Source: Bacteroidales bacterium | GTDB taxonomy: Bacteria > Bacteroidota > Bacteroidia > Bacteroidales > UBA932 | Assembly (NCBI GenBank): GCA_017555965.1 | Contig: JAFZFH010000078.1 | Location: forward strand, 1 to 45,140 | Reading direction: 5' to 3' | Length of the DNA stretch: 45,140 bases | Shown here: piece after piece, positions 3,893 to 43,497 of the stretch | Position numbering within the stretch: position 1 is the stretch's first letter | Layout: each line of letters opens with the position of its first letter | The notes under the pieces: generated by a model | Told to the model about the DNA's origin: nothing | Database searches by the model: none | What the model saw: the letters and a program-made list of their open reading frames with translations, nothing else | Translations under genes and position numbers: made by a program

Positions 3893-3988
3893 TTTCGATT
3901 TCTCCTGTTCTGTCGGATCCATTTCGGTTCTGACAATATGCTGTAAGATTTGTATCATATATAATACTTCGTATTATTTTGTATGATA
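3893..3988 (-). promoter_or_regulatory. Promoter-leader element 1
   Basis: On the minus strand it carries AATACGAAGTATTATATATG, then TTACAG and ATATTGTC, then AACAGGAGA before the ATG. It shares this order and spacing with elements at 9500, 10020, 34378 and 43403; the core is identical to that at 43403. The GGG/CCC hairpin of the other leaders is weak or missing here. Confidence 0.7.
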
Positions 3989-4005
3989 AAAGGTTTAGAA
4001 ATTGT

Positions 4006-4155
4006 TTAGGATCCGAATTTTCTTCTCCTGACAGCTTCGTAGATCTTACCTTTCTCGAACCCCTCTCGGAATGCTTGCCCACAGGATCCGCAGAAGTACA
4101 AGTTCTCCTTCTTGAACTCGTGTTCAGCCTGACGAGAACAGAAGGAACACCTCAT
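4006..4155 (-). CDS. Small zinc-ribbon protein (49 aa)
   Basis: Two CxxC knuckles (CSFC at 3-6, CGSC at 22-25) define a compact zinc ribbon, followed by a basic tail (AVRRRKFGS). Such proteins usually bind nucleic acid or protein; the target is unknown. The ATG at 4155 overlaps the ThyX stop (ATGA), so it is coupled to ThyX as the last gene before promoter-leader element 1. GGTGAAGGG serves as the ribosome binding site. Confidence 0.75.
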   Translation of the reverse strand: MRCSFCSRQAEHEFKKENLYFCGSCGQAFREGFEKGKIYEAVRRRKFGS

Positions 4156-4844
4156 CCCTTCACCTTCTTCGGGAACCTTCCACATCCTCTGGCTTCAGGA
4201 CAGTAACCCAGTTGTTTACATCTGGATCCAGCATCCTCGAAGATCGACGGAGCGACCTCGCGCACGAGTGCGAGCATTATGTCAGCGAGTTGCTTGATCT
4301 CCCACTGCGCTCTCTCACAGCACCTCAGCGAGAAGAAGTGACGGAGTTCGCGCGCGTTCATGGTCACGATGAGATTGGTCTTGCAGGCATTGGGAAGGAT
4401 GTAACGGGCATCCTCTTCGGGGATGCCTGCCTTGACCAATGTATCATATTCCTCTCCCAACTCACACATGATCTTCTCATACCATTCCAAGGTGCTGATC
4501 TCATCGCCAGTATACTCATTTCTCCAAATTGTCTTCGAGTCTTTGATGCTCTCAGGCACGACATAATCGAATCCATCCATCCTGACGTATCTTTGAGACT
4601 GCTGGCTGTATGATGCCATCCTGTGACGTACAAGTTGATGAGAACAGGCTCTTGAGATCCCTTCGATAGCGAAAGTGAAGGTTGCGTGTTCCAGTACAGA
4701 CTCGTGTCCAGATCTGAGCGCGTGTCCAAGTGCTTTGAATCCATCCTCTTTCAGATCGGGTCTGCTCTCGCTCACGCAGATCTCTGCTCCGAGGTTACAG
4801 ACTGATTCAGCCATGGGTGTATATGCTATCAGTTCGATATTCAT
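4152..4844 (-). CDS. thyX: FAD-dependent thymidylate synthase ThyX (230 aa)
   Basis: It makes dTMP from dUMP using methylene-tetrahydrofolate and NADPH with FAD. The ThyX signature RHRxxSxxxxSxRY is present (RHRMASYSQQSQRY, about residues 73-86), and the length is normal for the family. The C-terminus has a short cysteine cluster (CKQLGYCPEARGC) that many phage ThyX proteins share. The start overlaps the preceding ORF by 4 bp. With dUTPase in the same module it completes a dUTP to dUMP to dTMP route, which would support phage DNA synthesis and reduce dependence on host thymidylate synthase. Confidence 0.96.
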   Translation of the reverse strand: MNIELIAYTPMAESVCNLGAEICVSESRPDLKEDGFKALGHALRSGHESVLEHATFTFAIEGISRACSHQLVRHRMASYSQQSQRYVRMDGFDYVVPESIKDSKTIWRNEYTGDEISTLEWYEKIMCELGEEYDTLVKAGIPEEDARYILPNACKTNLIVTMNARELRHFFSLRCCERAQWEIKQLADIMLALVREVAPSIFEDAGSRCKQLGYCPEARGCGRFPKKVKG

Positions 4845-5056
4845 TCAACCACCTCACGAGTCACCCCAAAGCGACTCCCACGAACAAAGTCGTGATAATC
4901 CCATATGTCGTCCCACGAGATTTTCATTTTAAAGTATGCGTCGAGACTCCCATACTCATCAACCGTACTGTCTATCCACGCAACCTTTTCAGCAAGTTTG
5001 CGCACGCCTTCTTCCCCAAGACGTTCATCGAACTTTGAGGTTGTCACTTGCTTCAT
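4841..5056 (-). CDS. Hypothetical acidic protein (71 aa)
   Basis: This unrecognised protein has an amphipathic helical middle (ERLGEEGVRKLAEKVAWIDS) and several aromatic residues near the end (WDDIWDYHDF). It overlaps ThyX by 4 bp downstream and the next small gene by 4 bp upstream, so it is embedded in a translationally coupled run. No domain is visible. Confidence 0.7.
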   Translation of the reverse strand: MKQVTTSKFDERLGEEGVRKLAEKVAWIDSTVDEYGSLDAYFKMKISWDDIWDYHDFVRGSRFGVTREVVE

Positions 5057-5199
5057 TCTCTCACCTCGTACTCATGGATCATGATGCAATCGAAATTTCC
5101 GTACTTCTCTATGACGAACCTCTCTGCGGACTTCCAGCTAGAGAATATACCCACGAAGCGTGTCATATAGAACTGTTCAAACACGATATACACTTTCAT
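5053..5199 (-). CDS. Hypothetical small protein (48 aa)
   Basis: Sequence MKVYIVFEQF...SSWKSAERFVIEKY is typical of short alpha/beta phage proteins, but no family is recognised. GAGGTCGAGAGA precedes the ATG at 5199. Both ends overlap neighbours by ATGA (5053-5056 and 5196-5199), strong evidence that it is translated. It resembles the 53-aa product at 43009-43170 in opening (MKV), size and the W/K/A-rich middle. Confidence 0.75.
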   Translation of the reverse strand: MKVYIVFEQFYMTRFVGIFSSWKSAERFVIEKYGNFDCIMIHEYEVRE

Positions 5200-5375
5200 T
5201 CTCTCGACCTCTTCTCACGACACTCAGGACACAGACACCAGATCCCGCACTCCAAGGTGAGCCATCCAGCGTCATTGATGCGCTTCACACAGGTGGCGCG
5301 ATCTTCCGATACCCCGATGTAGGAGACCTTGCACCTGTCACAACGTGCGATGTAGTAGATGGCAGGCTCGATCAT
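5196..5375 (-). CDS. Small cysteine-rich zinc-binding protein (59 aa)
   Basis: Cysteines fall as CDRC (12-15) and CLCPEC near the end, with two more between, consistent with a zinc ribbon. The start at 5375 is set by AGGAGGTCATCGG immediately upstream; an earlier in-frame start would overlap the preceding gene by about 60 bp. Its stop overlaps the next gene by 4 bp. Function is unknown. Confidence 0.72.
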   Translation of the reverse strand: MIEPAIYYIARCDRCKVSYIGVSEDRATCVKRINDAGWLTLECGIWCLCPECREKRSRE

Positions 5376-5641
5376 TCCGATGACCTCCTGATCTGTGGGA
5401 TGGGATTCCTCTTGGGTCTGTAAGCTGTCTCCCAATGCTCAGGGACGAACTTGACCCACTCACCTTCATCAACACACTTGATCGTGGTGATCCAAGTCTC
5501 GTCGTAGAAGGTGTAGACTTCAAACTGTGTGCCAGGGGATGCGTATCCCCTGGCGGTCAGCTTCTCACAGAGCGTCTTAAGACCTCTACCCGTACAGATC
5601 CCCTCAGCGAGCTGGACATAAACCGCGTTCAGGCTTGACAT
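5372..5641 (-). CDS. Hypothetical protein (89 aa)
   Basis: No recognised family. It is a mixed alpha/beta sequence (LCEKLTARGY, then FEVYTFYDETWITTIKCV) ending in a basic proline-rich tail (YRPKRNPIPQIRR). The ATG at 5641 follows AGAGGGGTGATG. It overlaps the next gene by 4 bp and abuts the previous one at 5641. Confidence 0.7.
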   Translation of the reverse strand: MSSLNAVYVQLAEGICTGRGLKTLCEKLTARGYASPGTQFEVYTFYDETWITTIKCVDEGEWVKFVPEHWETAYRPKRNPIPQIRRSSE

Positions 5642-5790: not shown

Positions 5791-5791
5791 C

Positions 5792-6010: not shown

Positions 6011-6014
6011 TCTA

Positions 6015-7235
6015 TCACTCCATCAGTTCCCATTCCTTTCTCTTTTCTTTCATCCTCTTGACATACTGATCGTACGCGCTCTGCTTGGTCGGACTGAATC
6101 CCAATCCCTTACACCAATAGTCGTTCTTGAGTAAAGTTTTCACGATTTTGCGCCAGGAAGGTACTTCTTTCTTGTTTTCCAGATAGTAATCCGCTTCATC
6201 GGGGATACCATCGGGATAACCCTTCTTGGTCATGTACCATCTGAGGTAGACCGCGATCTTGTTCTTGTAATGCTCCGCTGTACTCTCTGGCATGGTGTCC
6301 AGGATGTACTTAGCGAAAGATTCCCAGGTGTGACCTGGCGGTAGCGTGACCTTTCCGTTGCCCAGGATGTTGCCCATCTCCTTGCAATAGATCGACGAGG
6401 AATTGGCTCCTGCGGTGCGTAGAACCATCTTCGCCCACGTCTGGGGTTCCAGTACCTGATACAGCCAGATCGAAGCTCTAGCCTCGGAACAGAAGGGTTC
6501 ATCGACCCTCATCTGGTGGATCGACAGACCAGCCTGATAGAACCTGTCATAGATCTGGTTGTAGCACTTACCATACTTCGCCAGATATGTCCAGTCGTCC
6601 TCTGCCTTCCAGTCGTAGATCGGGTAGACGTTCCACACATCGTCTGATACCTGAGTGGTGTAGATCTTGTCGTCGAACTTGTTCTTACGACGGTTCGCCA
6701 GTGCGCGGTAACGGTTCAGGCTCTCGCGCGTGCGTATGCCCACCATACAGGCTGTTGGCTTACCGTCCCCATACCAGGTGTTGAACTTCTCGATGAACTC
6801 GTAGAACTCGATCCCGTAGTAGTAGAACGGGAATCTGGATTCATCCGTGATCATGTAAGGCTCCTGCTTCCTGACCCACACATCCTTCTTGGACTTGTCC
6901 CAACTGATCCATGACGGTTCGATCTGGGACACTGCACTATCTCCGAAGATCGGAAGTGCGATCCAGTAAGGATCTATGTGATCCGCGTACATCTCGAAGA
7001 TGGTCTTCACGTGATCGATCGTGAGCTGATACTGGACTTCCCAATCGATGAAGAAAAGCGCAACCTTGCGATCGCGCTTGATGGCTTCTTCCATGATCAG
7101 GTGTGTCATACAGGTACTGTCCTTTCCACCGCTGAACGATATACATATCTTCTCGAAATTGTCAAATGCCCACGATATACGCTCTTTCGATGCGGTCAGA
7201 ACGTCCATATCAAGCATGACTCTGGATGTATTCAT
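6015..7235 (-). CDS. IbrA-like PAPS-reductase-family protein (406 aa)
   Basis: This is a PP-loop (N-type ATP pyrophosphatase) protein. The nucleotide loop SFSGGKDSTCMTHL lies near residue 35, and the conserved RTRESLNRYR segment is near 165. The C-terminal extension resembles the DUF3440 region of IbrA. Family members adenylate a substrate, often for sulfur chemistry; the substrate of IbrA-type proteins is not established. It is coupled to an upstream 132-aa gene, a GNAT acetyltransferase and an IbrB-like ParB/Srx protein. The IbrA-IbrB pairing is a recognised combination in phages and prophages. The start at 7235 follows GGAGGAATGGGAG. DndC-like DNA sulfuration is an alternative, but no other dnd gene is present. 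Confidence 0.88.
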   Translation of the reverse strand: MNTSRVMLDMDVLTASKERISWAFDNFEKICISFSGGKDSTCMTHLIMEEAIKRDRKVALFFIDWEVQYQLTIDHVKTIFEMYADHIDPYWIALPIFGDSAVSQIEPSWISWDKSKKDVWVRKQEPYMITDESRFPFYYYGIEFYEFIEKFNTWYGDGKPTACMVGIRTRESLNRYRALANRRKNKFDDKIYTTQVSDDVWNVYPIYDWKAEDDWTYLAKYGKCYNQIYDRFYQAGLSIHQMRVDEPFCSEARASIWLYQVLEPQTWAKMVLRTAGANSSSIYCKEMGNILGNGKVTLPPGHTWESFAKYILDTMPESTAEHYKNKIAVYLRWYMTKKGYPDGIPDEADYYLENKKEVPSWRKIVKTLLKNDYWCKGLGFSPTKQSAYDQYVKRMKEKRKEWELME

Positions 7236-7608: not shown

Positions 7609-7963
7609 TTAACCTCACGAACCTTATTCCTGTTTTCTCATTCACAGATACGATCACGAATCCGTACTCGATGAATATCCTCATGCTGTATTCGGTCACG
7701 TACGCTGAATACCACTCTTTATCAGACCGTGACAATAGGGTGGAAAGTAGTTCACTTCCAATACCTTGTTTCCTGTATTCTTTGAGTACGAAGAAACAAC
7801 GAACTCTTTTTCCAAGTAATCCGATGACACCAACGATTTTATCGCCCTCGAACGCTCCGAACCACTTGTCACACTTGGAAACATAGATCTTTTCTTTGTA
7901 GGCTTTGGAATCGTTCAGGAACGAGATCCCAACATCGTTCGAAACCTCTTCGATTTTAATCAT
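7601..7963 (-). CDS. GNAT-family N-acetyltransferase (120 aa)
   Basis: It would transfer an acetyl group from acetyl-CoA to an amine. The acetyl-CoA loop is seen as KEYRKQGIGSELL (Q/RxxGxG/A) at about residues 81-93, after the strand RVRCFFVL. The protein is short for the family but has the usual strand-loop-helix order and a C-terminal aromatic strand (FIEYGFVIVS). It lies between the IbrB-like gene (8-bp overlap) and the 132-aa gene. The substrate is unknown; modification of a cassette product or of DNA cannot be told from sequence. Confidence 0.85.
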   Translation of the reverse strand: MIKIEEVSNDVGISFLNDSKAYKEKIYVSKCDKWFGAFEGDKIVGVIGLLGKRVRCFFVLKEYRKQGIGSELLSTLLSRSDKEWYSAYVTEYSMRIFIEYGFVIVSVNEKTGIRFVRLNV

Positions 7964-8618
7964 CGAGCATTTCCCCTTCGTCGATCACTTCTTCGTCTTC
8001 GAACTCGCACGTCCAAGCCTGGGAGAACTGCCTGTCCTTGAACAATTCAGCAAGTCCAGTGACCTGGGACAGCCTGAGTACTTCATCAGCATCCATGCCC
8101 AGTTTCTTGGCGATCTTCTCGTTCGACCAGTTGCGTCTCCTGAGATCGAGGACGATGTTCGCCATAGCGTCCACCTGATGCTTTCCCCTGGCGCGGTTGT
8201 GTCTGATCGTGGATGCGATCCTCTGACCCTTGTCGGTCACATCATCGTTGATGACCACGACGGGAAGGTATCCGTGAACGCGATCCTTGATGTCCTGACA
8301 CTCCTTTCCTACGCGGTTGCGGTGGAATCCATCCACGACCTCGTAGATCCCGTCATGTTGCCAGACGACGATCGGCTGGGTGTATCCATCCTCTTTGATG
8401 CTGACGTGCAACAGCTCCATTTCTGGCGGTGCTACACTGTTGGGGTTGTAGTCGTTTGCCTGTACCAGCTCCTGCGGAACCCACTGGACACAGTCCACGG
8501 GTTCGCCCTTGAACGGACTTACCGACCTGATATACTGCTTGATCTCATTGATCGCCTGAACGCGATCCATCGCTTCCATCTGTTCGAGTTCTCTTATATT
8601 CTCGATCATTTTATCCAC
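7956..8618 (-). CDS. IbrB-like ParB/sulfiredoxin-fold protein (220 aa)
   Basis: The ParB/Srx catalytic-type fold is visible: VQWVPQELVQANDYNPN, then VSIKEDGYTQPIVV and EVVDGFHRNRVGKE, which carries the GxHR-type motif. A helical DNA-binding-like region follows (NWSNEKIAKKLGMDADEVLRL). Some ParB/Srx proteins bind and hydrolyse nucleotides or ATP. The pairing with a PAPS-reductase-like protein identifies it as IbrB-like. Coupling to the acetyltransferase is by an 8-bp overlap. The C-terminus is acidic (FEDEEVIDEGEMLDD). Confidence 0.88.
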   Translation of the reverse strand: MDKMIENIRELEQMEAMDRVQAINEIKQYIRSVSPFKGEPVDCVQWVPQELVQANDYNPNSVAPPEMELLHVSIKEDGYTQPIVVWQHDGIYEVVDGFHRNRVGKECQDIKDRVHGYLPVVVINDDVTDKGQRIASTIRHNRARGKHQVDAMANIVLDLRRRNWSNEKIAKKLGMDADEVLRLSQVTGLAELFKDRQFSQAWTCEFEDEEVIDEGEMLDD

Positions 8619-9274: not shown

Positions 9275-9499
9275 TCACTCACCCATTGCCTCGCTCTTGA
9301 TCTTCTTCATTATTGCACTGCACCACTCACTCTCGTAGTGGATGTGATCGTAGAGTTCACCCATGCGACCATCCTTATGCATCTTATACAGATCACAGCT
9401 AGCACACTCAACTCCCATGACCTTCTTAGCCCACTCACGAGCTTCCTTAACGGTCACGCAGTCAAGGTACAGATCTCCGCAGATTGCCATCACATACAT
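9275..9499 (-). CDS. Hypothetical small protein (74 aa)
   Basis: Unrecognised. It has a strand-rich start (MYVMAICGDLYLDCVTV), a helix (KEAREWAKKVMG), and a CASC knuckle with nearby His residues (YDHIHYESEWC) that could bind metal. The ATG at 9499 stands at the same distance from AACAGGAGA as in the four sister leaders. It is the first gene of the unit leading into the IbrAB cassette. Confidence 0.75.
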   Translation of the reverse strand: MYVMAICGDLYLDCVTVKEAREWAKKVMGVECASCDLYKMHKDGRMGELYDHIHYESEWCSAIMKKIKSEAMGE

Positions 9500-9590
9500 T
9501 TTCATTCTCTCCTGTTCTTGTCGGGTTCTTCCCGACATTATAGACATTCTTTTGTGGTGTATATAAGACTATGTATTATTATGTCTGACA
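9500..9590 (-). promoter_or_regulatory. Promoter-leader element 2
   Basis: On the minus strand it carries AATAATACATAGTCTTATATAC. A clear hairpin TGTCGGG-AAGAA-CCCGACA follows, then AGAACAGGAGA and the ATG. The layout matches the other four elements, and this copy has the longest leader stem (7 bp). Confidence 0.7.
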
Positions 9591-9623: not shown

Positions 9624-10019
9624 TTAGAGGGTTTCAATCTCCATGCTCTCGAACATCCTCTGGAAGAAGTAGTCTGCGTGTTCTCTCGTGAATCCACCAT
9701 AGCAGACGTTGTGCCAGTTGACCTTCTTGTTCTCGAAGTCGATGCTCGCATTTCCGTCGAACATTGCAACCATCTTTCCGTCTGTGTAGTCTTTGATCTC
9801 GAACACAGTGACGTTGTCTCCCATGACATCCTTGTGCTTTACAGCGACGATGATTGTCCTCATGGTCTCACTACACTTGGGAGCGAATCCTACTCCGTAC
9901 AGGACTTCGAACCTCTTGAATCCAAGGTTTGTGTTTCCGAAGAAATCGTCGGGAACCTCGTGGGATGCGATGTTCTCTCTGATAGCAGTCTTAATTCTTG
10001 CCTCAAGCTTTCCGTCCAT
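9624..10019 (-). CDS. Hypothetical protein (131 aa)
   Basis: A mixed alpha/beta protein without a recognised family. Notable segments are HEVPDDFFGNTNLGFKRF, TIIVAVKHKDVMGD, DNVTVFEIKDYTDGKMVAMF and a C-terminal FTREHADYFFQRMFESM. The start at 10019 follows leader element 3. It seems to be a single-gene unit between two promoter-leader elements, about 125 bp after the end of the tail operon. Confidence 0.75.
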   Translation of the reverse strand: MDGKLEARIKTAIRENIASHEVPDDFFGNTNLGFKRFEVLYGVGFAPKCSETMRTIIVAVKHKDVMGDNVTVFEIKDYTDGKMVAMFDGNASIDFENKKVNWHNVCYGGFTREHADYFFQRMFESMEIETL

Positions 10020-10104
10020 TTTACATATCTCCTGTTCGGGTTTTGTTCCCGTCTAATATCTATATCTACCAATTGATATATAAGACTTTGTATGACAATG
10101 TCAG
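10020..10104 (-). promoter_or_regulatory. Promoter-leader element 3
   Basis: On the minus strand it carries CTGACA, 17 bases, then ATATAT within ATACAAAGTCTTATATATC. A hairpin CGGG-AACAAAA-CCCG follows, then AACAGGAGA. It starts right behind the terminator of the structural operon, so it re-initiates transcription for the next unit. Confidence 0.75.
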
Positions 10105-10136
10105 ATAAAAAATAAAAAAGTGGGGAATATCCCCAC
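10105..10136 (-). terminator. Rho-independent terminator of the head-tail operon
   Basis: On the minus strand GTGGGG-ATATT-CCCCAC is followed by TTTTTTATTTTTT. It lies 8 bp after the last baseplate gene. Both stem and T run are strong. Confidence 0.9.
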
Positions 10137-11395: not shown

Positions 11396-12574
11396 TTAGT
11401 TCACCTCAATATACTCAAAGGTTGGAATGATGGAATGTCCAGTTTCGTCGAAGGACTCGACAACCTCCGTGATCCTGGCATTCGCTTCAATCCCATATTC
11501 GTTCAAAACTGTTACAATGTCTCCGAGGAAATAATCTTTCCCGAACTGGAAGGAGTGGTTCGGCTCAACCTCACCGTCGAATGTCACGACGATTCCAGTC
11601 TCAGCCAGCTTCTCGCGTCCCCTCTCAACCAGCATCTCGTTGTAGGGTGCTGGCTCAAGCACAGCCTGAGTAGGCTTGCTTGCGCTGTCCAGGGTGGCGA
11701 TCTTCACACCACTCACGGAGTAATAGACCTTGTTGGACTCGGTCGCGATCGTTCCGTTGGGATACAGCGCGATCAGATCCTCGTAGGTCATCTCGTTTGA
11801 AACGTCGTTGGCATCGACGAACATCTCGAACCTGTCGATCCCGACGTAGTCACCGATCTGAGCGGTCGCACTTATGCGGTTGCTTCCTTCCCCAGCACCT
11901 CCGACGAGTGCGATGGAGTAATAGCCAGTACTGTCCATCGTGTACCTCGTCGAGATCAGGTTCTCGAAGTTAGGACTGAAGACCACATACGGGTTCACAT
12001 CCTGACCATAGGAGCGATCTGTACCCTTGTACAGCTCGAAGACGAACTCATCGTTCTCCCATATCACTCTGGATCCATAATTGAACATCTGGCACACCTC
12101 GATGATCTTGTCACCCACGGGATCGTAGGTGGTCTGGATGTCCAGGTTGTCATTGAATCCACTCCATGCCCTACGGTTGAAGTTGTGGATCGCTCTGACC
12201 CTGTTCGTAGGCTCGATGATGTTCTCATCCAACAGACGACCAATGAATGTGCCAGCCTGACCTTTGAATGTGGTCTGCTTCCAGACGATGCGCTGGTTAA
12301 GGATCGCCCTGCAATCCTCACCCTTGACGATCAGGAAGTCACCAGTCTCAGGGTTGGTCTCCAACTCCACGCTGTTGATACGACAGATCATGTCGTTGTC
12401 GTCAGAGCGAAGGATGAAGTTCCCACGCTTCAGGAGATCGATGTTCTCACGGGTTGCCGAGATGTACAGCTCACAGTCTCCGAACAGCGTGTATCTCTTA
12501 GCCCAGATGAAACTGGTGAATCCATCGACGATTCCGACCTGGTTGTACAGTCTGTCCAACACATAGATCTCCAT
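11396..12574 (-). CDS. Gp37-like baseplate hub / tail-associated protein (392 aa)
   Basis: It resembles the siphovirus ReqiPepy6 Gp37-like family, which takes the place of the tail-associated lysin (Tal) hub. Typical segments are VDGFTSFIWAKRYTLFGDCE, LLKRGNFILRSDD and VELETNPETGDFLIVKG, with a closing VTVLNEYGIEANARITEV. It would form the baseplate hub at the tail tip. No peptidoglycan hydrolase motif is seen. It sits between Dit and the next baseplate gene with 1-3 bp gaps. Confidence 0.87.
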   Translation of the reverse strand: MEIYVLDRLYNQVGIVDGFTSFIWAKRYTLFGDCELYISATRENIDLLKRGNFILRSDDNDMICRINSVELETNPETGDFLIVKGEDCRAILNQRIVWKQTTFKGQAGTFIGRLLDENIIEPTNRVRAIHNFNRRAWSGFNDNLDIQTTYDPVGDKIIEVCQMFNYGSRVIWENDEFVFELYKGTDRSYGQDVNPYVVFSPNFENLISTRYTMDSTGYYSIALVGGAGEGSNRISATAQIGDYVGIDRFEMFVDANDVSNEMTYEDLIALYPNGTIATESNKVYYSVSGVKIATLDSASKPTQAVLEPAPYNEMLVERGREKLAETGIVVTFDGEVEPNHSFQFGKDYFLGDIVTVLNEYGIEANARITEVVESFDETGHSIIPTFEYIEVN

Positions 12575-25915: not shown

Positions 25916-27349
25916 TTAGACCTTCTCTTTCCAAACACCGTGAACGTTCTCGAACGCTTCGGTCAGTTCCTTCCACTCACCGTTAACGTTGCCCATCGGT
26001 ACACACTCTTTCCAGACATCGTGAACGTTGACGGGAACGGTTATTCCACCCAGTCTTTTGTAAGTGAATGTGGTGTACATGGATTTTCCAAATACTTCAT
26101 CAGATGCCCATCCTGTCGAATAAATGGTAGAGTGAACTGGCTTCTCACTAGTACCTAATTGGAACGAAGTATAGGTATTGATTGAATTTGGACGATTTCC
26201 GATAAAGATTATCTCAGTAAGATTAGAACAGTTCTCGAACGCGTACTGCTCAATGGTCGTTACACTTGCTGGTATTGTGATTGATGTGAGTGCTTGACAG
26301 TTGGCGAATTGCCATGTGCCGATACTCGTTATATTTGGTGACAGTTCAACTGATTCCAAACTCTCACAGTCACTAAACACATAATTACCAATATATGTGA
26401 CGCTAGGCGGTATTGTAATTGATTTTATACCTGAACCGCAGAAGGTGTAGTCACCTATATATGTTATATTTGGTGACAGTTCAACTGATTCCAAACTCTC
26501 ACAATTAGAAAACGACCCTCTTGTCTTTGAACCGCTAGCACTAATCCATGTAATACTAGATGGTATAGTGACTGATTTTAGATTTATACAATTTGCAAAT
26601 AAACCACTACTCAGTGTCGTTATACCAGCAGGTATCACCATTGATGTTAAGCCTGTACACCCTGCAAATACAGACTCTCCGAGATTAGTTACACTTGCAG
26701 GTATTTCGATTGTTTCCAATGAAGAACAGCCATAAAATGCCTCACCCTGAATATTTGTCACACTTTCAGGTATTACTATCGATTGCAATGATGTGCAATT
26801 ATAGAACACAGAATTTTCTATTTTTGCCAAATTTGACGGTAATGTAACCGATATTAAATTCTTACATTCGCGAAACGTGTTTGCACTAAGATTTACTGTA
26901 CCAGCAGGCACACTTATGGTTTTGATACCGCTATAAGCAAATGTATAATACCCCCAAACCGTGTTGACACCTGGCATATCGATTGTTTCCAGAGATGTGC
27001 AATAATAGAATGTCTCAGGTCCGATTATAGTAACCGCATTAGGGATAACTAGAGATGTTACTGCACTACAATTTCTAAACACACCATTGTCAATAGTATT
27101 AACTGTGTCTGGTATTGTAATCTCACGCATGGATGTGAAATACTGAAACGAATAGGCACCAAGCCTAGTAATTCCAGAATTTATGATTACACTTGTAATC
27201 TTAGACTTGTGAGCGAAATAGTCACTGGTTATACCAGAACTGTGTGAATAGCCATTTATCGCACCAGTTCCACTGATGGTCAAGACTCCCGTCTCGTCAT
27301 CGAACTCCCATGTGGCTGAAGTACCACACGTTCCGTTATACACGGTCAT
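25916..27349 (-). CDS. BspA-like leucine-rich-repeat protein (477 aa)
   Basis: It consists of about 14 LRR_5 (BspA/Treponema type) repeats of roughly 23 residues, for example SLETIEIPASVTNLGESVFA and SLESVELSPNITYIGDYTF, from about residue 50 to 385. This fold is common in adhesins of gut bacteria. The C-terminus repeats a short unit three times (VNVHDVWKE, VNGEWKEL, VHGVWKEK), also seen once in the second LRR protein (VKVKGEWVNV), likely a virion attachment tag. The gene is visibly AT-richer than its neighbours, suggesting recent acquisition. No signal peptide is seen, so it is probably a tail or virion adhesin. Confidence 0.88.
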   Translation of the reverse strand: MTVYNGTCGTSATWEFDDETGVLTISGTGAINGYSHSSGITSDYFAHKSKITSVIINSGITRLGAYSFQYFTSMREITIPDTVNTIDNGVFRNCSAVTSLVIPNAVTIIGPETFYYCTSLETIDMPGVNTVWGYYTFAYSGIKTISVPAGTVNLSANTFRECKNLISVTLPSNLAKIENSVFYNCTSLQSIVIPESVTNIQGEAFYGCSSLETIEIPASVTNLGESVFAGCTGLTSMVIPAGITTLSSGLFANCINLKSVTIPSSITWISASGSKTRGSFSNCESLESVELSPNITYIGDYTFCGSGIKSITIPPSVTYIGNYVFSDCESLESVELSPNITSIGTWQFANCQALTSITIPASVTTIEQYAFENCSNLTEIIFIGNRPNSINTYTSFQLGTSEKPVHSTIYSTGWASDEVFGKSMYTTFTYKRLGGITVPVNVHDVWKECVPMGNVNGEWKELTEAFENVHGVWKEKV

Positions 27350-28372: not shown

Positions 28373-28665
28373 CACATCACCTCATTTTCTAAACATTTAC
28401 CGCAATTGAGAGTAAAAACTTTACTTGCCATCACTGTGTCTTGTCGCATGATCCTGACCTGCATCTGTACAGGAGCGTGCGTGAAGTTCAAGGTCTCGTT
28501 CTGACTCAGCTTGAGTTCAACCTTGTTATCCCACATGGCGCAATCTTTTTTCGTTTTCCTGACCTTCACCCTGCCGTTCTGACTGTAAATGATGTGGATC
28601 TCGTCGATCGTGTCCACATTAATCGGCAGGGTGAAACTGTGTGTAGGAGTTGTCCCACGAATCAT
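28372..28665 (-). CDS. Small conserved phage structural protein (97 aa)
   Basis: The opening MIRGTTPTHSFTLPI is a conserved start of a small Firmicute phage protein usually found near tail fibre genes. It is beta-rich (EIHIIYSQNGRVKVRKT, VQMQVRIMRQDTVMASKVF). It may be an upper-baseplate or fibre-anchoring protein. GTGGGTGATT precedes the ATG at 28665. It overlaps the collagen-like gene by one base. Confidence 0.75.
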   Translation of the reverse strand: MIRGTTPTHSFTLPINVDTIDEIHIIYSQNGRVKVRKTKKDCAMWDNKVELKLSQNETLNFTHAPVQMQVRIMRQDTVMASKVFTLNCGKCLENEVM

Positions 28666-29850: not shown

Positions 29851-31689
29851 TTACCAAGTCTGTATTCCACCGACCCAATACGACTGTGCATTACCTGTCA
29901 GAAGGCTTCCCTGAGTCCTCCATTCGAACATCAGGTTCATGTTGCTCTGAACACCGCCAGGAAGCGTGTAACGGATGTACTCAGATCCACTAACGATCTG
30001 AGTACCATTCATCCACAGCTCACACAGTTGACCTGTGTACTTGTTGATAAGCTGAATATAGAGTTCCGCGCCCTTTCTGACCTTCATGAGTGATCTCACC
30101 TGTGATGTCGAGTCATTCACGTTGAAGTTATCATTCAGTCCTGGAAGCACAACACCATCGACAGTCACTCTCAGGTAGTACTCGGATCCATCCTTCGCAA
30201 CTGGTCCAGAATTAGATGCAGGAGGATATGTCCTCTTGGTCAGCGCATCAGTGATACCATAGATCTTGTAATAGTTGATCGTGTAGGTGACATCCCACTT
30301 CGCATAGAGCGTCACATCACCTGTCACACTCATGAGCTGACCATTCGAGTATGTCGTACCCGTTCCATCAGCCTTGGTATTCCATCCTACGAAATCGTAA
30401 CCAGAAGGATGTGTTCCGTATGCGCTGTTGACATACACATACGCAGGCATACCATCGACACCCACGACATCCACGCTACCCATTGCACCCGTTCCACCGT
30501 TCATGTCGAACGTGACCTTATAGCGATCCAACGATGCCCATTCCAGCACATCTGCGAAGGATCTCATCATTACATAGTGTCCGTATGGTTCAGGATGTGG
30601 ATCCACGTCGGGAACGATGACCTTCTCGACAACATCTGTGACCAGCTCGGTTGAAAGTCCCTCAAGATCCAGACCGTATTTGTTGATCAAGTTCGTCCAG
30701 TATCCTGTGACATCTCCACCGTGAAGCCTTCCCCAATCCATTGTCGCTGTGTTGTACCCTCTCGTGTACTCAACGCTGACTAGATCGTTGTAATGCTTCT
30801 CAGCACCACTCACAGGTCTGTCGGGGAATGAATCGAACAGTGCCTTGGTATCAGCAACGCTGAACTTTCCTCCGTATGCGGACACCTTGTTCTTGATGAT
30901 CGTATTCAACTGTGTGACGTATCTCTCAGCCCAATCATCCAGACCGTTGACCCTTGAGAACAGGAGCTTGACCATCGACATTTCACCCAATCTGGATTTA
31001 ATGTACTCGTCGATCTCGTATCCAAGGATGTTCATCTCTGGGATCATGTCCAGGAGTGGCTTGAAGAATCCACCAGTTCCTTCCTCGATCCAGAGGTACT
31101 TGTAAGGGTTGTAGATCGTCGTGAACACATACCTCGCGTTCGGATTGATCTCAACCAGCTTGTTGAATAAACTCCAATACGAGTTCGCGTAGCTGTCATT
31201 ATTCAGTTTCGCAAGGTTGCCCTCTACGATCGACTCAAGGGTTGACAGATCCCCGTAGTTGATGTACTCGTCAAGCTGTGATAGTGCTGGCTGAAGGACA
31301 TCATTCGCACCGATACAGATCGTCACGAGTCTTGCATTCCTGATCGCTTTCTTCACCACATCGTGTGAAAGCTTCTCGATCAGATCTGCTACCGTATCAC
31401 CCGAACGTGCGAAGCTCGTCGATGAGACCTCACCCTTCAGTTCATCCAGTGCCTTACCGATCCTGTCTGTGTATGAGTCGGGAACGATCGCTGTCGATGT
31501 ATTCCCATTGACTCCATACTGAGAACCCTCACCATAATCTGTGATCCAGTTCTCGTCGATCGTGTGTCCTGCTGGGATACTGTCACCTAACGACACATAT
31601 CCGAACGTACTGTTCCACAGGACGATCCCATTGGACTCGATCATAACGACGTTGCCCTCTGGGATCCTCATTCCTACGAACTCGCTCAT
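29851..31689 (-). CDS. SGNH/GDSL hydrolase with InlB-type repeat (612 aa)
   Basis: A large GDSL-type esterase domain spans about residues 25-385. It shows block I YVSLGDSIPAGH (catalytic Ser), block III CIGANDVL, and block V DVDPHPEPYGH (Asp and His). Then comes a Listeria-Bacteroides (InlB B) repeat with MNGGTGAMGSVDVVG and YDFVGWNTKADGTG, ending LYAKWDVTYTINYYK. A C-terminal beta domain follows. Such enzymes on phage tails can remove acetyl or other ester groups from cell surface glycans. The start at 31689 overlaps the upstream gene by 4 bp. Substrate unknown. Confidence 0.88.
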   Translation of the reverse strand: MSEFVGMRIPEGNVVMIESNGIVLWNSTFGYVSLGDSIPAGHTIDENWITDYGEGSQYGVNGNTSTAIVPDSYTDRIGKALDELKGEVSSTSFARSGDTVADLIEKLSHDVVKKAIRNARLVTICIGANDVLQPALSQLDEYINYGDLSTLESIVEGNLAKLNNDSYANSYWSLFNKLVEINPNARYVFTTIYNPYKYLWIEEGTGGFFKPLLDMIPEMNILGYEIDEYIKSRLGEMSMVKLLFSRVNGLDDWAERYVTQLNTIIKNKVSAYGGKFSVADTKALFDSFPDRPVSGAEKHYNDLVSVEYTRGYNTATMDWGRLHGGDVTGYWTNLINKYGLDLEGLSTELVTDVVEKVIVPDVDPHPEPYGHYVMMRSFADVLEWASLDRYKVTFDMNGGTGAMGSVDVVGVDGMPAYVYVNSAYGTHPSGYDFVGWNTKADGTGTTYSNGQLMSVTGDVTLYAKWDVTYTINYYKIYGITDALTKRTYPPASNSGPVAKDGSEYYLRVTVDGVVLPGLNDNFNVNDSTSQVRSLMKVRKGAELYIQLINKYTGQLCELWMNGTQIVSGSEYIRYTLPGGVQSNMNLMFEWRTQGSLLTGNAQSYWVGGIQTW

Positions 31690-32315
31690 CTCACGCACAC
31701 TTCTTTCGTCAGGGTAGTACCATCATCAAGCGTGAATGTCCAGGTCTCATAATTCAGATTGACATTATCAATCTCGGCATTTCCACGCTTGACGATGTAG
31801 CAATCTTCCATTTTGCTGATACGACTCGGTTCAAACGTCTTATACCTGTCGTTAACCCAAACCCCCTCGTTAAGTGTCGAGAAGCTGACATAAAAGCTGT
31901 CAGTTAACATTGCAATCTGGGATCCAGTTCCATACACCTTACTAGCACTTCCAACGGTCATGCTACAATTACCACATAGATAGGAGTAGCCTTTATCGAA
32001 GGTTCCACCACTCAATATGATGTTCCCATCGTCAGAACCATTCACAGGTGTGACAACGTTGATTTTTCCAAAGATCAACTCATCACCAACGTTCATGTTC
32101 TTGATTTCATTGAATAATGCCTGTCCATCGCTAATAGCAATAATCTGTCTACTCGTGATCCTCGCGTTGATCTCAGCCTGTACCTCAGCGATTGCCTCAG
32201 CTCTCGCCTCGATCTCAGAATCTATTCTTGCGTCGATCTGATCCACGACCTCTTTTGGTGCAACCTCGACCTTACACTTCGCATCACAATATCCGTATAC
32301 TTTCGTATGTACCAT
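31686..32315 (-). CDS. Tail fibre-like protein (209 aa)
   Basis: It begins MVHTKVYGYCDAKCKVEV, a small two-cysteine head, then a coiled coil (IDARIDSEIEARAEAIAEVQ). A beta domain of about 150 residues follows (SGGTFDKGYSYLCGNCSMTV). The design suits an upper fibre or attachment subunit for the hydrolase encoded directly downstream, to which it is coupled by ATGA. GAGGTGTG precedes the start. Confidence 0.8.
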   Translation of the reverse strand: MVHTKVYGYCDAKCKVEVAPKEVVDQIDARIDSEIEARAEAIAEVQAEINARITSRQIIAISDGQALFNEIKNMNVGDELIFGKINVVTPVNGSDDGNIILSGGTFDKGYSYLCGNCSMTVGSASKVYGTGSQIAMLTDSFYVSFSTLNEGVWVNDRYKTFEPSRISKMEDCYIVKRGNAEIDNVNLNYETWTFTLDDGTTLTKEVCVR

Positions 32316-33057: not shown

Positions 33058-33333
33058 TCACTGATCCTTTCCAAGCTGTTTGATTGTCTGATTCACATAT
33101 ACAGACGCACCAGCACACAGGATTCCCTGAACGATCGCGGTGAAGATACTCTCAGCACAGAAATTACACGTTGCGCTCACGTAGAGCGTAGCCAGGACGA
33201 TTCCGATCGCTCCGATGAACAGAGGGATCATCTTATCAGGCACGAGTTCCGACTTCTTGAAAGCCATCCCTATCAGATAAAGGACTGGGATCAAGACAAT
33301 CAGCTCAGGTGCGATGTACTCCATGATGTCCAT
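33058..33333 (-). CDS. Holin (Phage_holin_5_2-like, 91 aa)
   Basis: Three hydrophobic segments are seen (APELIVLIPVLYLIGMAF; MIPLFIGAIGIVLATLYV; IFTAIVQGILCAGASVYV), separated by short charged loops, with a charged tail (IKQLGKDQ). This matches small three-helix holins of Firmicute phages. It would form membrane lesions that release the amidase. It is the first gene below the 446-bp regulatory region. GAGGTGTTATAA supplies the ribosome binding site. Its endolysin partner lies 5 kb away. Confidence 0.85.
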   Translation of the reverse strand: MDIMEYIAPELIVLIPVLYLIGMAFKKSELVPDKMIPLFIGAIGIVLATLYVSATCNFCAESIFTAIVQGILCAGASVYVNQTIKQLGKDQ

Positions 33334-33396: not shown

Positions 33397-33411
33397 ATCA
33401 CAATTCGCGAC
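33397..33411 (+). promoter_or_regulatory. Operator-like site at the late promoter region (a)
   Basis: ATCACAATTCGCGAC agrees with the 481-495 site at 11 of 15 positions. Its centre lies 32 bp (about three helical turns) from the next site, so cooperative binding is possible. Confidence 0.45.
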
Positions 33412-33428
33412 TTAATCAAATATACAAA

Positions 33429-33443
33429 ATCGCGATATGTGAC
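33429..33443 (-). promoter_or_regulatory. Operator-like site at the late promoter region (b)
   Basis: Read on the minus strand, GTCACATATCGCGAT agrees with the 481-495 site at 13 of 15 positions. It is in opposite orientation to site (a). Confidence 0.5.
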
Positions 33444-33452
33444 ACTGAGAAT

Positions 33453-33747
33453 ATGTAAGCCAGGCTGTTTTTACGTTTCAAATATAAAGAACCCAATATT
33501 TTTGCGTAAATTTTCAGCTAGCTTATATAGTGTCACGCGTCACATGACTCATATATTACTATTATTTCTTTATATTATAGAATTAGTTTTTTCATTTTTT
33601 AAAAATACAAAATCCTATAAAGAAATAGAAAAAATGTAAGACATTTAAGACATTTAAGCCACTATTTAAAGAAAAGGCTATTTTTTCGGTTGAGTATATA
33701 AAGAAAGGTGACTCACATTTTTTAGAAATGTAAGCCAAATGTAAGCC
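33453..33747 (+). repeat. Iteron-like 9-bp repeats (six copies)
   Basis: ATGTAAGCC or close variants start at 33453, 33634, 33643, 33652, 33728 and 33739. The three at 33634-33660 are in direct tandem, and the last two are 11 bp apart. Such arrays bind initiators or regulators. The binding protein is unknown. Confidence 0.6.
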
Positions 33748-33779
33748 ACCGCGACTGCGGAGAAGGGTTTTCGGGGAGC

Positions 33780-34119: not shown

Positions 34120-34377
34120 TCACTCCACCTCCCAGTTATCTACAATAAAGTCCTGGGGTTTCATGCACGCCACTTCGATCCCGTTCATCATGAACTTAAG
34201 GAGATCGTTACTAAGTATTACATGGTCAAAATAGATGACTATCGAACCCATGCCTAGTGCGAACTCATTTCCAATCTGAATCATCACACACTCCTTGAAG
34301 ACAGGATGGAAAAGCTTGAAAGAACCATCGTTCTTTACGATTTCAAGTCCGTTGTTGAGTTCCTCGAATGTTATCAT
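34120..34377 (-). CDS. Hypothetical protein (85 aa)
   Basis: Unrecognised, alpha/beta (MITFEELNNGLEIVKNDGSF; IVIYFDHVILSNDLLKFMMN). It is the first gene after promoter-leader element 4 and starts at the usual distance from AACAGGAGA. Confidence 0.73.
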   Translation of the reverse strand: MITFEELNNGLEIVKNDGSFKLFHPVFKECVMIQIGNEFALGMGSIVIYFDHVILSNDLLKFMMNGIEVACMKPQDFIVDNWEVE

Positions 34378-34468
34378 TTTGCATATCTCCTGTTGTCGGG
34401 TTCTTTTCCCGTTCTAATATTCTGTATAAGGTGTGTCATATATAATACTTCGTATGACATTGTAAGAT
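34378..34468 (-). promoter_or_regulatory. Promoter-leader element 4
   Basis: On the minus strand TTACAA and TCATACGAAGTATTATATATG are followed by ATACAGAATATTAG, a hairpin CGGG-AAAAGAA-CCCG and AACAGGAGA. It lies directly behind the replication-operon terminator. Confidence 0.75.
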
Positions 34469-34498
34469 AAAAAAGACAGTGGGATTGCTCCCACTGTC
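34469..34498 (-). terminator. Rho-independent terminator of the replication operon
   Basis: On the minus strand a 10-bp perfect stem GACAGTGGGA-GCAA-TCCCACTGTC is followed by TTTTTT, 3 bp after the primase stop. Confidence 0.92.
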
Positions 34499-38624: not shown

Positions 38625-39146
38625 TTATTGAATCGCCCGTGCGATCGCTCGCGCCATTTCCTTGTAACCTATCGTCTTGTAAAGTGTTTGGTCGGTCTCG
38701 TTGTCCAGGAAGAACATCTCGATCAACAATGCTGGTGCTTTGGTGTTCTTCACCACGTACAGGTGGGAACCATCACGGATCCCACGGTTACGGAATCCCA
38801 ATCGACTCACCTCGTAGCATACGCGGATCGCGTTGTCAAGCTTGCGTCCCTTGTAGGTGTAGACCTCCACTCCATGTCCCGTACGGTTGACGGATGCGTT
38901 GCAATGCAGTGAGATGAACAGATCCACGTCGCACGCATTCGCAGTACGAACAACCGCATCCAGATAGGAGTTCTGTGTTCTCGCATCGTCGATCGTGCTG
39001 TCGAACACAGTATGTCCATCCTTGCGCAGGAGCTTGATCAATTCTTTACCTACCTTTCGATTTATATCTGACTCATTGTATTTTCCTGACACAGCACCGT
39101 AGCCAGAGCCAGCGATAGTGTGTCCACAGTTCACGCTTATGCGCAT
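38625..39146 (-). CDS. N-acetylmuramoyl-L-alanine amidase, endolysin (173 aa)
   Basis: It cuts the amide bond between MurNAc and the peptide stem. Amidase_3 hallmarks are visible: NCGHTIAG with the first zinc His (residue 9), DINRKVGKELIKLL with the Glu region, SLHCNASVNR with the second His, and ALLIEMFFLDN with the catalytic Glu. No cell-wall-binding domain and no signal peptide are present, so it is a single-domain enzyme needing the holin. It lies unusually between the radical SAM and DNA polymerase genes. GAAAGGATGATAA precedes the start. Confidence 0.94.
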   Translation of the reverse strand: MRISVNCGHTIAGSGYGAVSGKYNESDINRKVGKELIKLLRKDGHTVFDSTIDDARTQNSYLDAVVRTANACDVDLFISLHCNASVNRTGHGVEVYTYKGRKLDNAIRVCYEVSRLGFRNRGIRDGSHLYVVKNTKAPALLIEMFFLDNETDQTLYKTIGYKEMARAIARAIQ

Positions 39147-40994: not shown

Positions 40995-40998
40995 TGAT

Positions 40999-42230: not shown

Positions 42231-42997
42231 TATTCATCCTCCTTGGGATAAATGATGTTCCCGTCAAGCTTACCGTCAGATTGACAGTAGGTCTTGAAGT
42301 CACACCAGTAACATAGTTTTTGTGGTTTTTTGACAAAGTCCTCACACTCGATGCAATGCTTCACATCCAGCATGAAGTCGATGACCTTGATCGGATCGTA
42401 CTCGATGGGTGCGATCGTTATCCCCTGCTTCTCACACTCTTCTATCAACATCCTCCTGTACTCGCGGATGTCCTCTGTCTCCTGCTTCAGCTTGACCTTT
42501 GGGATGAAGATGAATCCGAGGTTGCGGATCCTCTTTCCAGGGTTAGCCATCTCAAAGAAGAATTTGTACAAGTGGAGCTGGCTAGATGCCAGGTAGTTCT
42601 CCACATTGTTCGAGTACTTGAAATCATACAGATCATAGACGTTCGGCTCGACCTGAACCAACAGGTCTATGAATCCGATGAAGTCGGGACTGTTGATCTC
42701 GACTTCGAACTGTCCTGTCTCCAGTAGATCCGACAGGATTTCCTTCGCTTTCTTGACCATTACTTCCAGCTTGATAGCCTCGTTGACCATCAGCGGTGTA
42801 GCGGTTGGGTAGTTTGAATAGTAACTTCTGATCGCGCTCTCAACGTCCTTCTCGATACCCTCGTGCATCGCGGTTCCGAGAGCAAGAGCGTTGGTCGGAT
42901 CCAGATTGAACTTAGTGCTAAGTCCGTCTATGTATTTCAGCTTGAACTGGTAGGGACATTTCTTGAATGTCTCCACCCTTGAATGACTCATTCTCAT
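42230..42997 (-). CDS. Cas4/RecB-like PD-(D/E)XK exonuclease (255 aa)
   Basis: The nuclease core shows MSHSRVETFKKCPYQFKLKY (with the first Cys), GTAMHEGIEKDVE, FIGFIDLLVQVEPNVYDLYD and YKFFFEM. The C-terminal cysteines CYWCDFKTYC fit a Cas4/AddB-type iron-sulfur cluster together with the Cys near residue 14. It likely resects double-stranded ends for the Sak4-SSB pair. GAGGTGATAAGAA is the ribosome binding site. Confidence 0.9.
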   Translation of the reverse strand: MRMSHSRVETFKKCPYQFKLKYIDGLSTKFNLDPTNALALGTAMHEGIEKDVESAIRSYYSNYPTATPLMVNEAIKLEVMVKKAKEILSDLLETGQFEVEINSPDFIGFIDLLVQVEPNVYDLYDFKYSNNVENYLASSQLHLYKFFFEMANPGKRIRNLGFIFIPKVKLKQETEDIREYRRMLIEECEKQGITIAPIEYDPIKVIDFMLDVKHCIECEDFVKKPQKLCYWCDFKTYCQSDGKLDGNIIYPKEDE

Positions 42998-43008
42998 TTC
43001 TTATCACC

Positions 43009-43170
43009 TCAAGTCAGCCACTCGTGGTGCTTGCCATTCCAGATCGCGAGATAAGGGAAGCGCATCAGTCCCATTTCCTTGATGTACTCCTTGGCTTCCC
43101 TCTTGGTCTGGAACTCGCGCACCTCATCGGTGTCACGTTCCTTGACGTACCAAGATACTGTGACCTTCAT
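43009..43170 (-). CDS. Hypothetical small protein (53 aa)
   Basis: Starts MKVTVSWYVKERDTDEVREF, followed by a helix (TKREAKEYIKEMG) and WNGKHHEWLT. No family known. GAGGTGGAGTGAA precedes the ATG. The gap to the exonuclease gene is 11 bp, and it starts one base before the end of the upstream gene's stop region. Confidence 0.73.
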   Translation of the reverse strand: MKVTVSWYVKERDTDEVREFQTKREAKEYIKEMGLMRFPYLAIWNGKHHEWLT

Positions 43171-43171
43171 T

Positions 43172-43402
43172 TCACTCCACCTCGTACATATCGGTGACGA
43201 TGTTAACCTGACCCCAACTGTTCACATCCACATAGAGGCGATCATCTATCATGAAGTCTCTCAAGTCACCCTTAAGGAACTTGTCAAGGGTCTCCTTAGT
43301 CATTGTGAGGTTGAGTGTAACAGTGTTGACTTTAGCACCCTTAAGTTCCTCGTCCTTCATTGCTTTTCTGATGATATTCTTGATGTCAGTCATGGTTGCC
43401 AT
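43172..43402 (-). CDS. Hypothetical protein (76 aa)
   Basis: Unrecognised. It has a helical start (TDIKNIIRKAMKDEELKGAK), a central beta/alpha part (TVTLNLTMTKETLDKFL) and an acidic end (VTDMYEVE). The ATG at 43402 stands at the conserved distance from AACAGGAGA; reading on upstream would run through the leader hairpin. It opens the recombination/replication unit. Confidence 0.75.
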   Translation of the reverse strand: MATMTDIKNIIRKAMKDEELKGAKVNTVTLNLTMTKETLDKFLKGDLRDFMIDDRLYVDVNSWGQVNIVTDMYEVE

Positions 43403-43497
43403 TTTCGTTCTCTCCTGTTCGGGTCTTTCACCCTTCGACAATATTCTGTAAGACTTGTGTCATATATAATACTTCGTATTATTTTGTCATACGGATT
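43403..43497 (-). promoter_or_regulatory. Promoter-leader element 5
   Basis: On the minus strand ATGACA, 17 bases, then ATATAT inside AATACGAAGTATTATATATG. TTACAGAATATTGTC, a hairpin GGGT-GAAAG-ACCC and AACAGGAGA follow. The -35-like hexamer overlaps the nuclease stop codon at 43487. Confidence 0.75.

Follow-up and report, generated by a model that had tools for sequence, protein, structure and literature searches.

The window, by which we mean the whole 45,140-nt stretch analysed here, carries five copies of a promoter-leader element, all on the minus strand and with the same order of parts. We consider it likely, with a probability of about 0.7, that each copy represents a complete archaeal gene start with a 5'-terminal hairpin, used in an archaeal host. 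The evidence consists of the sequence anatomy of the elements, their recurrence in four virus contigs with one copy in a fifth, their near-constant spacing, their paired stems and the tRNAs of the closest element-bearing relative, G001; from these we infer the start site, the archaeal host and the role of the hairpin. TFB would recognise the A-rich BRE, TBP would recognise TTAWATA, and the archaeal RNA polymerase of the host would initiate some 23 nt further on, at a pyrimidine-purine (YR) step (TATT/AGAC or TATT/GTC). A short hairpin would then form at or near the 5' end of the transcript, with a strong Shine-Dalgarno sequence (SD) and the ATG behind it. The hairpin's most likely role would be to shield this end against 5'-to-3' RNA decay and to hold the adjacent ribosome site open.

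The features of the window are as follows.

Element e1, 3890..3972, minus strand: core 3957-3972; BRE CGAAG 3971-3967; TATA box TTATATA 3964-3958; predicted +1 3934 (TG); imperfect hairpin 3934-3912; SD 3909-3901; ATG 3892
Gene behind e1, 3716..3892, minus strand: 58 aa; no Pfam match at E 0.01; PHROG match only at E >0.05
Element e2, 9497..9574, minus strand: core 9559-9574; BRE CATAG 9573-9569; TATA box 9566-9560; predicted +1 9536 (TG); hairpin 9537-9519; SD 9516-9508; ATG 9499
Gene behind e2, 9275..9499, minus strand: 74 aa; no Pfam match at E 0.01, no PHROG match at E 0.1
Element e3, 10017..10091, minus strand: core 10076-10091; BRE CAAAG 10090-10086; TATA box 10083-10077; predicted +1 10054 (TA); hairpin 10051-10037; SD 10036-10028; ATG 10019
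Gene behind e3, 9624..10019, minus strand: 131 aa; no Pfam match at E 0.01; PHROG match only at E 0.061
Terminator-like stem-loop with T run, 10120..10136, minus strand: between the end of the structural block and e3
Element e4, 34375..34453, minus strand: core 34438-34453; BRE CGAAG 34452-34448; TATA box 34445-34439; predicted +1 34415 (TA); hairpin 34411-34397; SD 34394-34386; ATG 34377
Gene behind e4, 34120..34377, minus strand: 85 aa, heads the packaging/structural block; no Pfam match at E 0.01, no PHROG match at E 0.1
Terminator-like stem-loop with T run, 34475..34498, minus strand: between the primase gene and e4
Element e5, 43400..43477, minus strand: core 43462-43477; BRE CGAAG 43476-43472; TATA box 43469-43463; predicted +1 43439 (TG); hairpin 43433-43421; SD 43419-43411; ATG 43402
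Gene behind e5, 43172..43402, minus strand: 76 aa, heads the replication block; no Pfam match at E 0.01, no PHROG match at E 0.1

Element e2 has an additional in-frame ATG at 9505. The family of five minus-strand copies in this order, first proposed in a preliminary description of the sequence, is confirmed, and its cores are now located; that description had placed the copies by the bases immediately preceding the ATGs, not by the cores. With up to three mismatches, the core matched five times in the window against 0.73 expected, a number reached in 1 of 100 shuffles. Across the whole genome bin, up to two mismatches gave 12 matches and a reversed control pattern gave 15, leaving the perfect copies as the only ones distinct from background; all four of these lie in the window, and the other eight matches, with two mismatches, are e2 and seven sites elsewhere. 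AACAGGAGA is exact in all five elements and, taken alone with one mismatch allowed, is not unusual (18 matches, 17.2 expected). The full order (TTAWATA, a stem starting 20-29 nt later, SD, ATG) occurs four times in the window and in none of 60 shuffles, under a rule written after the elements had been seen. Element e1 misses this rule because its stem is imperfect, its sequence allowing GTC..GAC pairing with two mismatches, which agrees with the earlier statement that the hairpin is clear in four copies. The genes behind the elements are indeed unrelated: no significant similarity was found among the five, and the sole pair listed up to E 10 had E = 0.097. In the window the elements head gene blocks, and in G001 they mostly precede small genes; the proposal that one kind of promoter heads the replication, structural and small-gene blocks stands.

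Homologous elements were found in three relatives, G001 (13), G029 (3) and G036 (5), and a single one on a fifth contig, L252; in these relatives, too, the family is kept ahead of unrelated genes. The box reads TTAAATA in G001 and G036 and TTATATA in the window and G029. We retained 26 elements from 29 candidates passing a first filter, after dropping G001 19445, 25884 and 28451 by eye since they miss the second conserved block. Also left out were a G001 minus-strand copy near 12303 that has no SD and ATG, and a core match with three mismatches and no second block near 28427 in G029. One alignment (A1) covers 25 of the 26 elements and another (A2) 22. Scanning for the full order gave 4 elements in the window, 14 in G001 (including 28451, which has a hairpin and was counted here though dropped from the 26), 3 in G029 and 3 in G036, against at most 0.033 per shuffle. 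The same scan returned no element in 18 other compared records, some of them partial. The close relative G025 (TerL 77%) lacks the elements, which counts against the archaeal reading. Pattern scans of viral contigs gave, in one case, 12 stretches of which none was an element on reading; in another, G001 and one contig whose match is no element; in a further scan, nine stretches on eight contigs, with elements on G001 and G036; and in the last scans, 25 stretches with five elements, on G001, G036, G029 and L252. A contig from these scans, L191, has box, block and hairpin, with SD and ATG not in place, and was excluded as doubtful. Among 150 bacterial genomes, comprising the bin and its kin, one AT-rich match was found.

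Recent duplication of a single cassette, carrying only an ordinary promoter, would also yield repeated elements. Elements e1 and e5 are 94% identical over 51 nt and may represent a fairly recent copy, and several G001 copies are more than 90% alike. However, the other window comparisons shown range from 65 to 89%, and across the four viruses box, spacing, block, stem and SD persist despite differences in the intervening sequences. We hold this explanation to be the least probable of those considered here.

The core fits an archaeal promoter. TTAWATA, which was part of the rule used to gather the elements, is present in 26/26 and is preceded by A in 23 and by C in 3. The BRE region is purine-rich with two central A residues (A at -34 in 25/26, A at -33 in 20/26), and a YR step lies 22-24 nt after the last A of the box in all 26 elements, at the middle of these three positions in 18. 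In Methanosarcina, the consensus given in PMC11409679 is a BRE CAAAA, 2 bp, TTTATATA and a YR step about 23 bp downstream, and PMC6640164 gives for P. furiosus a BRE RRAAA at -36 to -32, a TATA box at -30 to -23 and YR at -1/+1. The A/T alternation of the box (TTAAATA/TTATATA) would suit TBP, and we place the predicted start about 23 nt downstream because the conserved second block with its YR step and the start of the hairpin coincide there. A stricter BRE-TATA pattern was enriched in the window (4) and G001 (9) and absent from G029 and G036; it also occurred twice each in G013 and G018, a distribution that counts against this reading.

The preliminary description had read the core in a -35/-10 frame, with TTATATAT as the -10, a start 6-8 nt downstream and a leader of about 50-60 nt with an internal hairpin. 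TTATATAT is superficially -10-like, hairpin and SD would lie inside such a leader, and sigma-70-like pairs occur at e1 (TTATCA-17-TATTAT, 9/12) and just upstream of e2 (TTAACA-18-AATAAT, 10/12, ending one base ahead of the core), such pairs being at chance level in the region. We nevertheless judge this model very unlikely: the TTAAATA box of G001 and G036 would make a poor -10, the listed sigma-70-like pairs include none at e3, e4 or e5, and the second block and its near-constant distance are left unexplained. A search for sigma-70 promoters (TTGACA/TATAAT, 16-18 nt spacing) did not single out the elements, with totals at chance (16 against 14.6 expected; 22 against 25.7). The second block and the YR spacing point instead to an archaeal-type start, and a start 6-8 bases after TATATAT found no support. 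Nor did the suggested unusual sigma factor, since the general factors TFB and TBP would explain the conserved bases; for the same reason a dedicated activator is not needed, though one could still exist.

The proposed RNA hairpin in the leader was borne out. Strict stems were present in 23/26 leaders against 6.1 expected from leader shuffles, and the folding z was below -1 in 24/26. An unlimited search placed the stem start 22-29 nt after the box in 22 of the 23 strict stems, 20 of them at 22-25 nt; the SD follows 36-56 nt after the box. The standard deviation of the stem start is 1.6 nt when the search is limited to 18-29 nt and 5.2 nt when unlimited, owing to one outlier. Stem sequences vary with pairing kept (CGGG/CCCG, GTTGGG/CCCAAC, GGGC/GCCC, GACAGG/CCTGTC). 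As the stem starts at the predicted transcription start, transcripts probably begin with a 5'-terminal hairpin. A DNA operator as the meaning of the CGGG..CCCG repeat was rejected, as its loop length varies from 3 to 10.

The same arrangement could be read as bacterial middle-type promoters. In that case the box would stand in for the -35 as the binding site of a phage activator or an alternative sigma factor, the second block (TAGTAT, TATAAT, NATATT) would serve as a sigma-70 -10, and the first transcribed bases would be the GGG of the hairpin. Several second blocks are -10-like (TATAAT at e2 and at G001 38256 and -12035, GATAAT at G029 15494), and the lysis genes and gene content are typical of Gram-positive phages. 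A start 6-7 nt past these hexamers would, however, fall inside the stem of e2, of G029 15494 and of G036, where the stem directly follows the block, and the G001 tRNAs show archaeal features. We regard middle-type promoters as unlikely, if the strongest of the bacterial promoter readings.

These tRNAs speak for an archaeal host; they derive from G001, not from the window. Its tRNA-Gln has the A1-U72 pair that is the rule in archaeal tRNA-Gln, together with A73 and the loop CTTTGGA, as in tRNA-Gln(TTG) of the archaeal virus HGTV-1, whereas E. coli tRNA-Gln has U1-A72, G73 and TTTTGAT. Unlike that of E. coli tRNA-Glu, the D-arm of G001 tRNA-Glu (GTGTAG..CAATCAT) equals that of HGTV-1 tRNA-Gln(CTG), and tRNA-Pro has the archaeal pair G1-C72. 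The identity rules for bacterial Gln and for bacterial and archaeal Pro tRNAs are those of PMC9976931. Counter-examples exist: G001 tRNA-Pro has C73, a eukaryal base, the tRNA-Pro of HGTV-1 itself starts U1-A72 and its tRNA-Glu does not have the cited D-arm, and tRNA-Gln of Butyrivibrio phage Arian is G1-C72, which means that phage tRNAs can break the bacterial rule. BLAST of the G001 tRNAs gave no domain signal, and against phages none or short matches. TAG stops end 0/38 called genes in the window and 1/35 in G001; in Ca. M. alvus, TAG makes up 1.6% (PMC4153887), and the window's avoidance would fit a pyrrolysine-using methanogen. Arian (2/50) and several other relatives avoid TAG too, and TAG avoidance alone was rejected as archaeal proof since a Butyrivibrio phage shows the same.

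Other genes point to bacteria. A peptidoglycan amidase gene (PF01520, E 1.2e-34) is present in the window and, at 60%, in G001; it counts against an archaeal host because archaea are not known to have peptidoglycan. The window also has a phage holin gene (PF16079, E 6.1e-25). Its TerL shares 45% identity with Butyrivibrio phages, its primase shares 46% with Paenibacillus phages, and some window genes are close to Firmicutes phage genes. The terminator-like hairpins preceding e3 and e4 likewise count against the archaeal reading. The Cro-like genes are preceded by sigma-70-like hexamers in the window (TTGACT-17-TACTAT) and, by eye, in G001 (TTGACA-17-TAAAAT); hosts could not be told apart by counting such hexamers. 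Pfam and PHROG searches with the products of part of the window's genes recognised no phage-encoded RNA polymerase. The rpoB of the bin is, by eye, presumably Bacteroidales-like, and a 16S search of the bin found nothing, archaeal or bacterial; host counts for the bin rest on 6 of 10 stretches. If the archaeal reading is right, the window's virus seems to have been binned with bacteria, and its host would probably be a Methanomassiliicoccales methanogen. More tentatively, and doubtful at present, a tailed-virus lineage may recently have crossed from bacteria to methanogenic archaea, keeping its bacterial structural genes, holin and amidase, with expression rebuilt by a portable archaeal start cassette placed before blocks and small accessory genes; cassette-free close relatives such as G025 may still be bacterial viruses.

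In that event these contigs define a tailed-virus group infecting gut methanogens, probably pyrrolysine-using Methanomassiliicoccales; among the papers searched, a query by name for viruses of this order returned none. The elements would then provide a sequence signature to spot further such viruses even when binned with bacteria. They would also make two possibilities testable: hairpins at the 5' terminus of archaeal mRNAs, and a change of host domain within a virus lineage.

Bacterial stem-loops, for example that of ompA, stabilise mRNA at the 5' end. Our elements share with them a 5'-end hairpin upstream of the SD, and differ in that the hairpin is predicted from sequence and belongs to a probable archaeal virus. 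The SAS and Extended SAS of cluster K mycobacteriophages are short conserved repeats directly ahead of genes, with function given as unknown (PMC3203893). Like the present elements, they precede genes of different families and occur in many copies per genome, about half of them with inverted repeats; unlike them, they belong to bacterial phages and, in the available text of PMC3203893, come with no promoter box. Their hallmark, GGGATAGGAGCCC next to the start codon, was seen by eye in none of the 26 leaders, which carry AGGAG, GGAGA or GAGGT with other flanks. Moreover, SAS inverted repeats follow a consensus of their own and are imperfect over 17 bp (PMC3203893), whereas the stems described here vary in sequence and keep their position relative to the promoter box. 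With the Methanosarcina and Pyrococcus core promoters (PMC11409679, PMC6640164), the elements share the order of parts, the box sequences and the BRE-TATA and TATA-YR spacing; they differ in being fused with a conserved start block, a predicted 5'-end hairpin and a ribosome site, and in being repeated many times per virus. Judged by its anatomy, the element is a known promoter type within a new, repeated promoter-hairpin leader.

The five minus-strand promoter-leader elements of the window (e1-e5) exist in the order given by the preliminary description, i.e., core, hairpin, ribosome site, and ATG, as we confirmed in the window sequence. With up to three mismatches allowed, the core pattern matched five times in the window, compared with 0.73 expected. 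Under a rule that was composed after the elements had been seen, the complete order occurs four times in the window and in none of 60 shuffles. The ribosome-site string by itself is not enriched in the window, and the stem of e1 is imperfect. The genes that follow the five elements are mutually dissimilar. Pfam gave no match to them at E 0.01 and PHROG none below E 0.05, and tblastn (E 1e-3) detected no counterpart in the other records compared at that stage.

TerL relatives were drawn from IMG/VR (best 80 of 103) and from genome contigs. The exact core was not found in these relatives; with up to two mismatches it matched twice in 24 virus records, both times in the same record, and the reversed control gave six matches. 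Comparing each record with itself revealed many copies of a homologous leader in the nearest relative, G001 (TerL 82%), including ten at 35.6-40.5 kb, each preceding one of ten open frames of 55-224 codons. G029 was found via a DNA-polymerase search and G036 via a pattern search; G036 has a TerL 65% identical to that of the window, with just nine proteins in common overall at E 1e-5. We retained 26 elements (window 5, G001 13, G029 3, G036 5), and the final pattern search added one copy on a fifth contig, L252. The elements were found in none of the 18 other compared records, several of them fragmentary or partial, including the related virus G025 (TerL 77%). Other features of the compared contigs are:

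L192 (contig C8 of G025, horse-faeces bin), 3725-3791: type II hammerhead ribozyme (Rfam RF02276, E 1.1e-07)
L192, 14201-14273: tRNA-like gene whose anticodon was left unassigned and printed as two bases
L123, 41405-41572, terminal part of phage record MT835488: 36-nt repeat present three times with CRISPR-array-like spacing

Across these viruses, a TA, TC, or CA separates the box from an A-rich string upstream, which in four of the five elements of the window reads CRAAG. The box reads TTATATA in the window and G029 and TTAAATA in G001 and G036. All 26 elements have a pyrimidine-purine step 22-24 nt past the box, within a second block such as TATTAGAC, TATTGTC, or TAATGTC. Judged from sequence, this is the layout of an archaeal promoter, a type that is already known. 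The Methanosarcina consensus, as given in the accessible text of PMC11409679, has the same arrangement: a BRE (CAAAA), 2 bp, TTTATATA, and a pyrimidine-purine step about 23 bp downstream. The available parts of PMC6640164 give a similar consensus for P. furiosus, and those of PMC5378194 place BRE and TATA of Methanolobus about 19-22 nt from the start. The bacterial -10 at TTATATAT proposed in the preliminary description leaves the second block without a role. A bacterial -10 could instead lie at the second block, but this would put the start within the stem in several copies.

The hairpin directly follows the second block. Strict stems, defined by three G-C pairs in a search confined to 18-29 nt downstream of the box, occur in 23 of 26 leaders, whereas shuffling the leaders gave an expectation of 6.1. 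Of the remaining three leaders, two carry a short ACAG-GAAA-CTGT stem, which the rule excludes, and the third is e1. When stems were sought anywhere between box and Shine-Dalgarno sequence (SD), 22 of 23 started at a distance of 22-29 nt from the box, including 20 at 22-25 nt; the outlier is a G029 copy in which a different stem scored higher. Thus, the position of the hairpin follows the promoter box. From predicted start to stem there are 0-6 nt in 21 of 23 leaders, with e2 at -1 and one outlier; the SD lies 36-56 nt downstream of the box. Pairing is kept while the stems differ in sequence and the loops in length (3 to 10), which points to a hairpin that acts as RNA rather than as a protein site on DNA.

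In the mechanism we propose for the archaeal promoter, TBP and TFB would bring the host polymerase to every block, and RNA would start at the hairpin or a few bases ahead of it. The hairpin probably protects the 5' end against 5'-to-3' decay; an archaeal 5'-to-3' nuclease is described for Sulfolobus in the accessible text of PMC3792030. In G029 and G036 the hairpin ends at or near the SD and may leave it open. Gene order and two terminator-like sites would place e5 at the head of the replication block, e4 at the head of the packaging and structural block, and e3, e2, and e1 at the heads of smaller blocks. No repeated unit that combines an archaeal promoter with a 5'-terminal hairpin and a ribosome site was found in the accessible text of the literature searched, which was limited to papers available without subscription.

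The window is one entire contig (C45) of a metagenomic bin. Its terminal 141 bases are identical (1-141 and 45000-45140), and it is therefore probably a complete genome of about 45.0 kb, circular or circularly permuted. The gene content is that of a tailed virus (serine recombinase, HK97-type capsid, terminase, primase-helicase, DNA polymerase, holin, amidase), and 38 of 47 genes lie on the minus strand (mechanical gene call, 100 aa). Individual genes are:

Window 38625-39146: peptidoglycan amidase (Pfam PF01520)
Window 33058-33333: phage holin (Pfam PF16079)
Window 6015-7235: DUF3440/PAPS-reductase-like gene, 67% identical to a gene of G022, a 29% GC virus
Window 7956-8618: ParB-like gene, 74% identical to a gene of G022

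The last two suggest a cassette common to the window and G022. An AT-rich stretch at 33400-33760, resembled by eye by stretches in G001 and G029, contains TTTATATA, TTTAAATA, and repeated CTTAAATGT and is a possible replication origin or cos region. The tail region encodes repeat-rich proteins (25916-27349 and 29851-31698), whose repeats resemble, by eye, leucine-rich (BspA-like) and InlB-type repeats.

The virus probably has a host other than the bin, because window and bin differ in TAG and SD usage: in six of ten bin stretches, TAG ends 17 of 45 dominant-strand genes and an SD precedes 6 of 45, whereas the window has 0/38 TAG stops and 29/38 SDs. The tRNA-Gln of G001 (A1-U72, A73, loop CTTTGGA) agrees with tRNA-Gln(TTG) from HGTV-1, an archaeal virus, unlike that of E. 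coli (U1-A72, TTTTGAT), and the D-arm of its tRNA-Glu is that of HGTV-1 tRNA-Gln(CTG). The tRNA-Pro of G001 has G1-C72 but C73, a eukaryal feature by the identity rules in the available part of PMC9976931. The tRNA signals are mixed: HGTV-1 tRNA-Pro and tRNA-Glu lack the features of their G001 counterparts. The tRNA-Gln of the Butyrivibrio phage Arian has G1-C72. The amidase and holin speak against an archaeal host, as do the structural and replication genes, which are close to those of Firmicutes phages. These lysis genes are the main fact that the archaeal reading leaves unexplained; they contrast with the archaeal-looking promoters of the window and tRNAs of its nearest element-bearing relative. 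The archaeal reading is the most likely one, with a probability of about 0.70, reduced slightly on account of the Arian tRNA and of the restriction of the stem search to 18-29 nt. The near absence of TAG stops in the window is shared with the bacterial phage Arian (2/50), and it resembles that in Ca. Methanomethylophilus alvus, for which the accessible text of PMC4153887 gives TAG as 1.6%.
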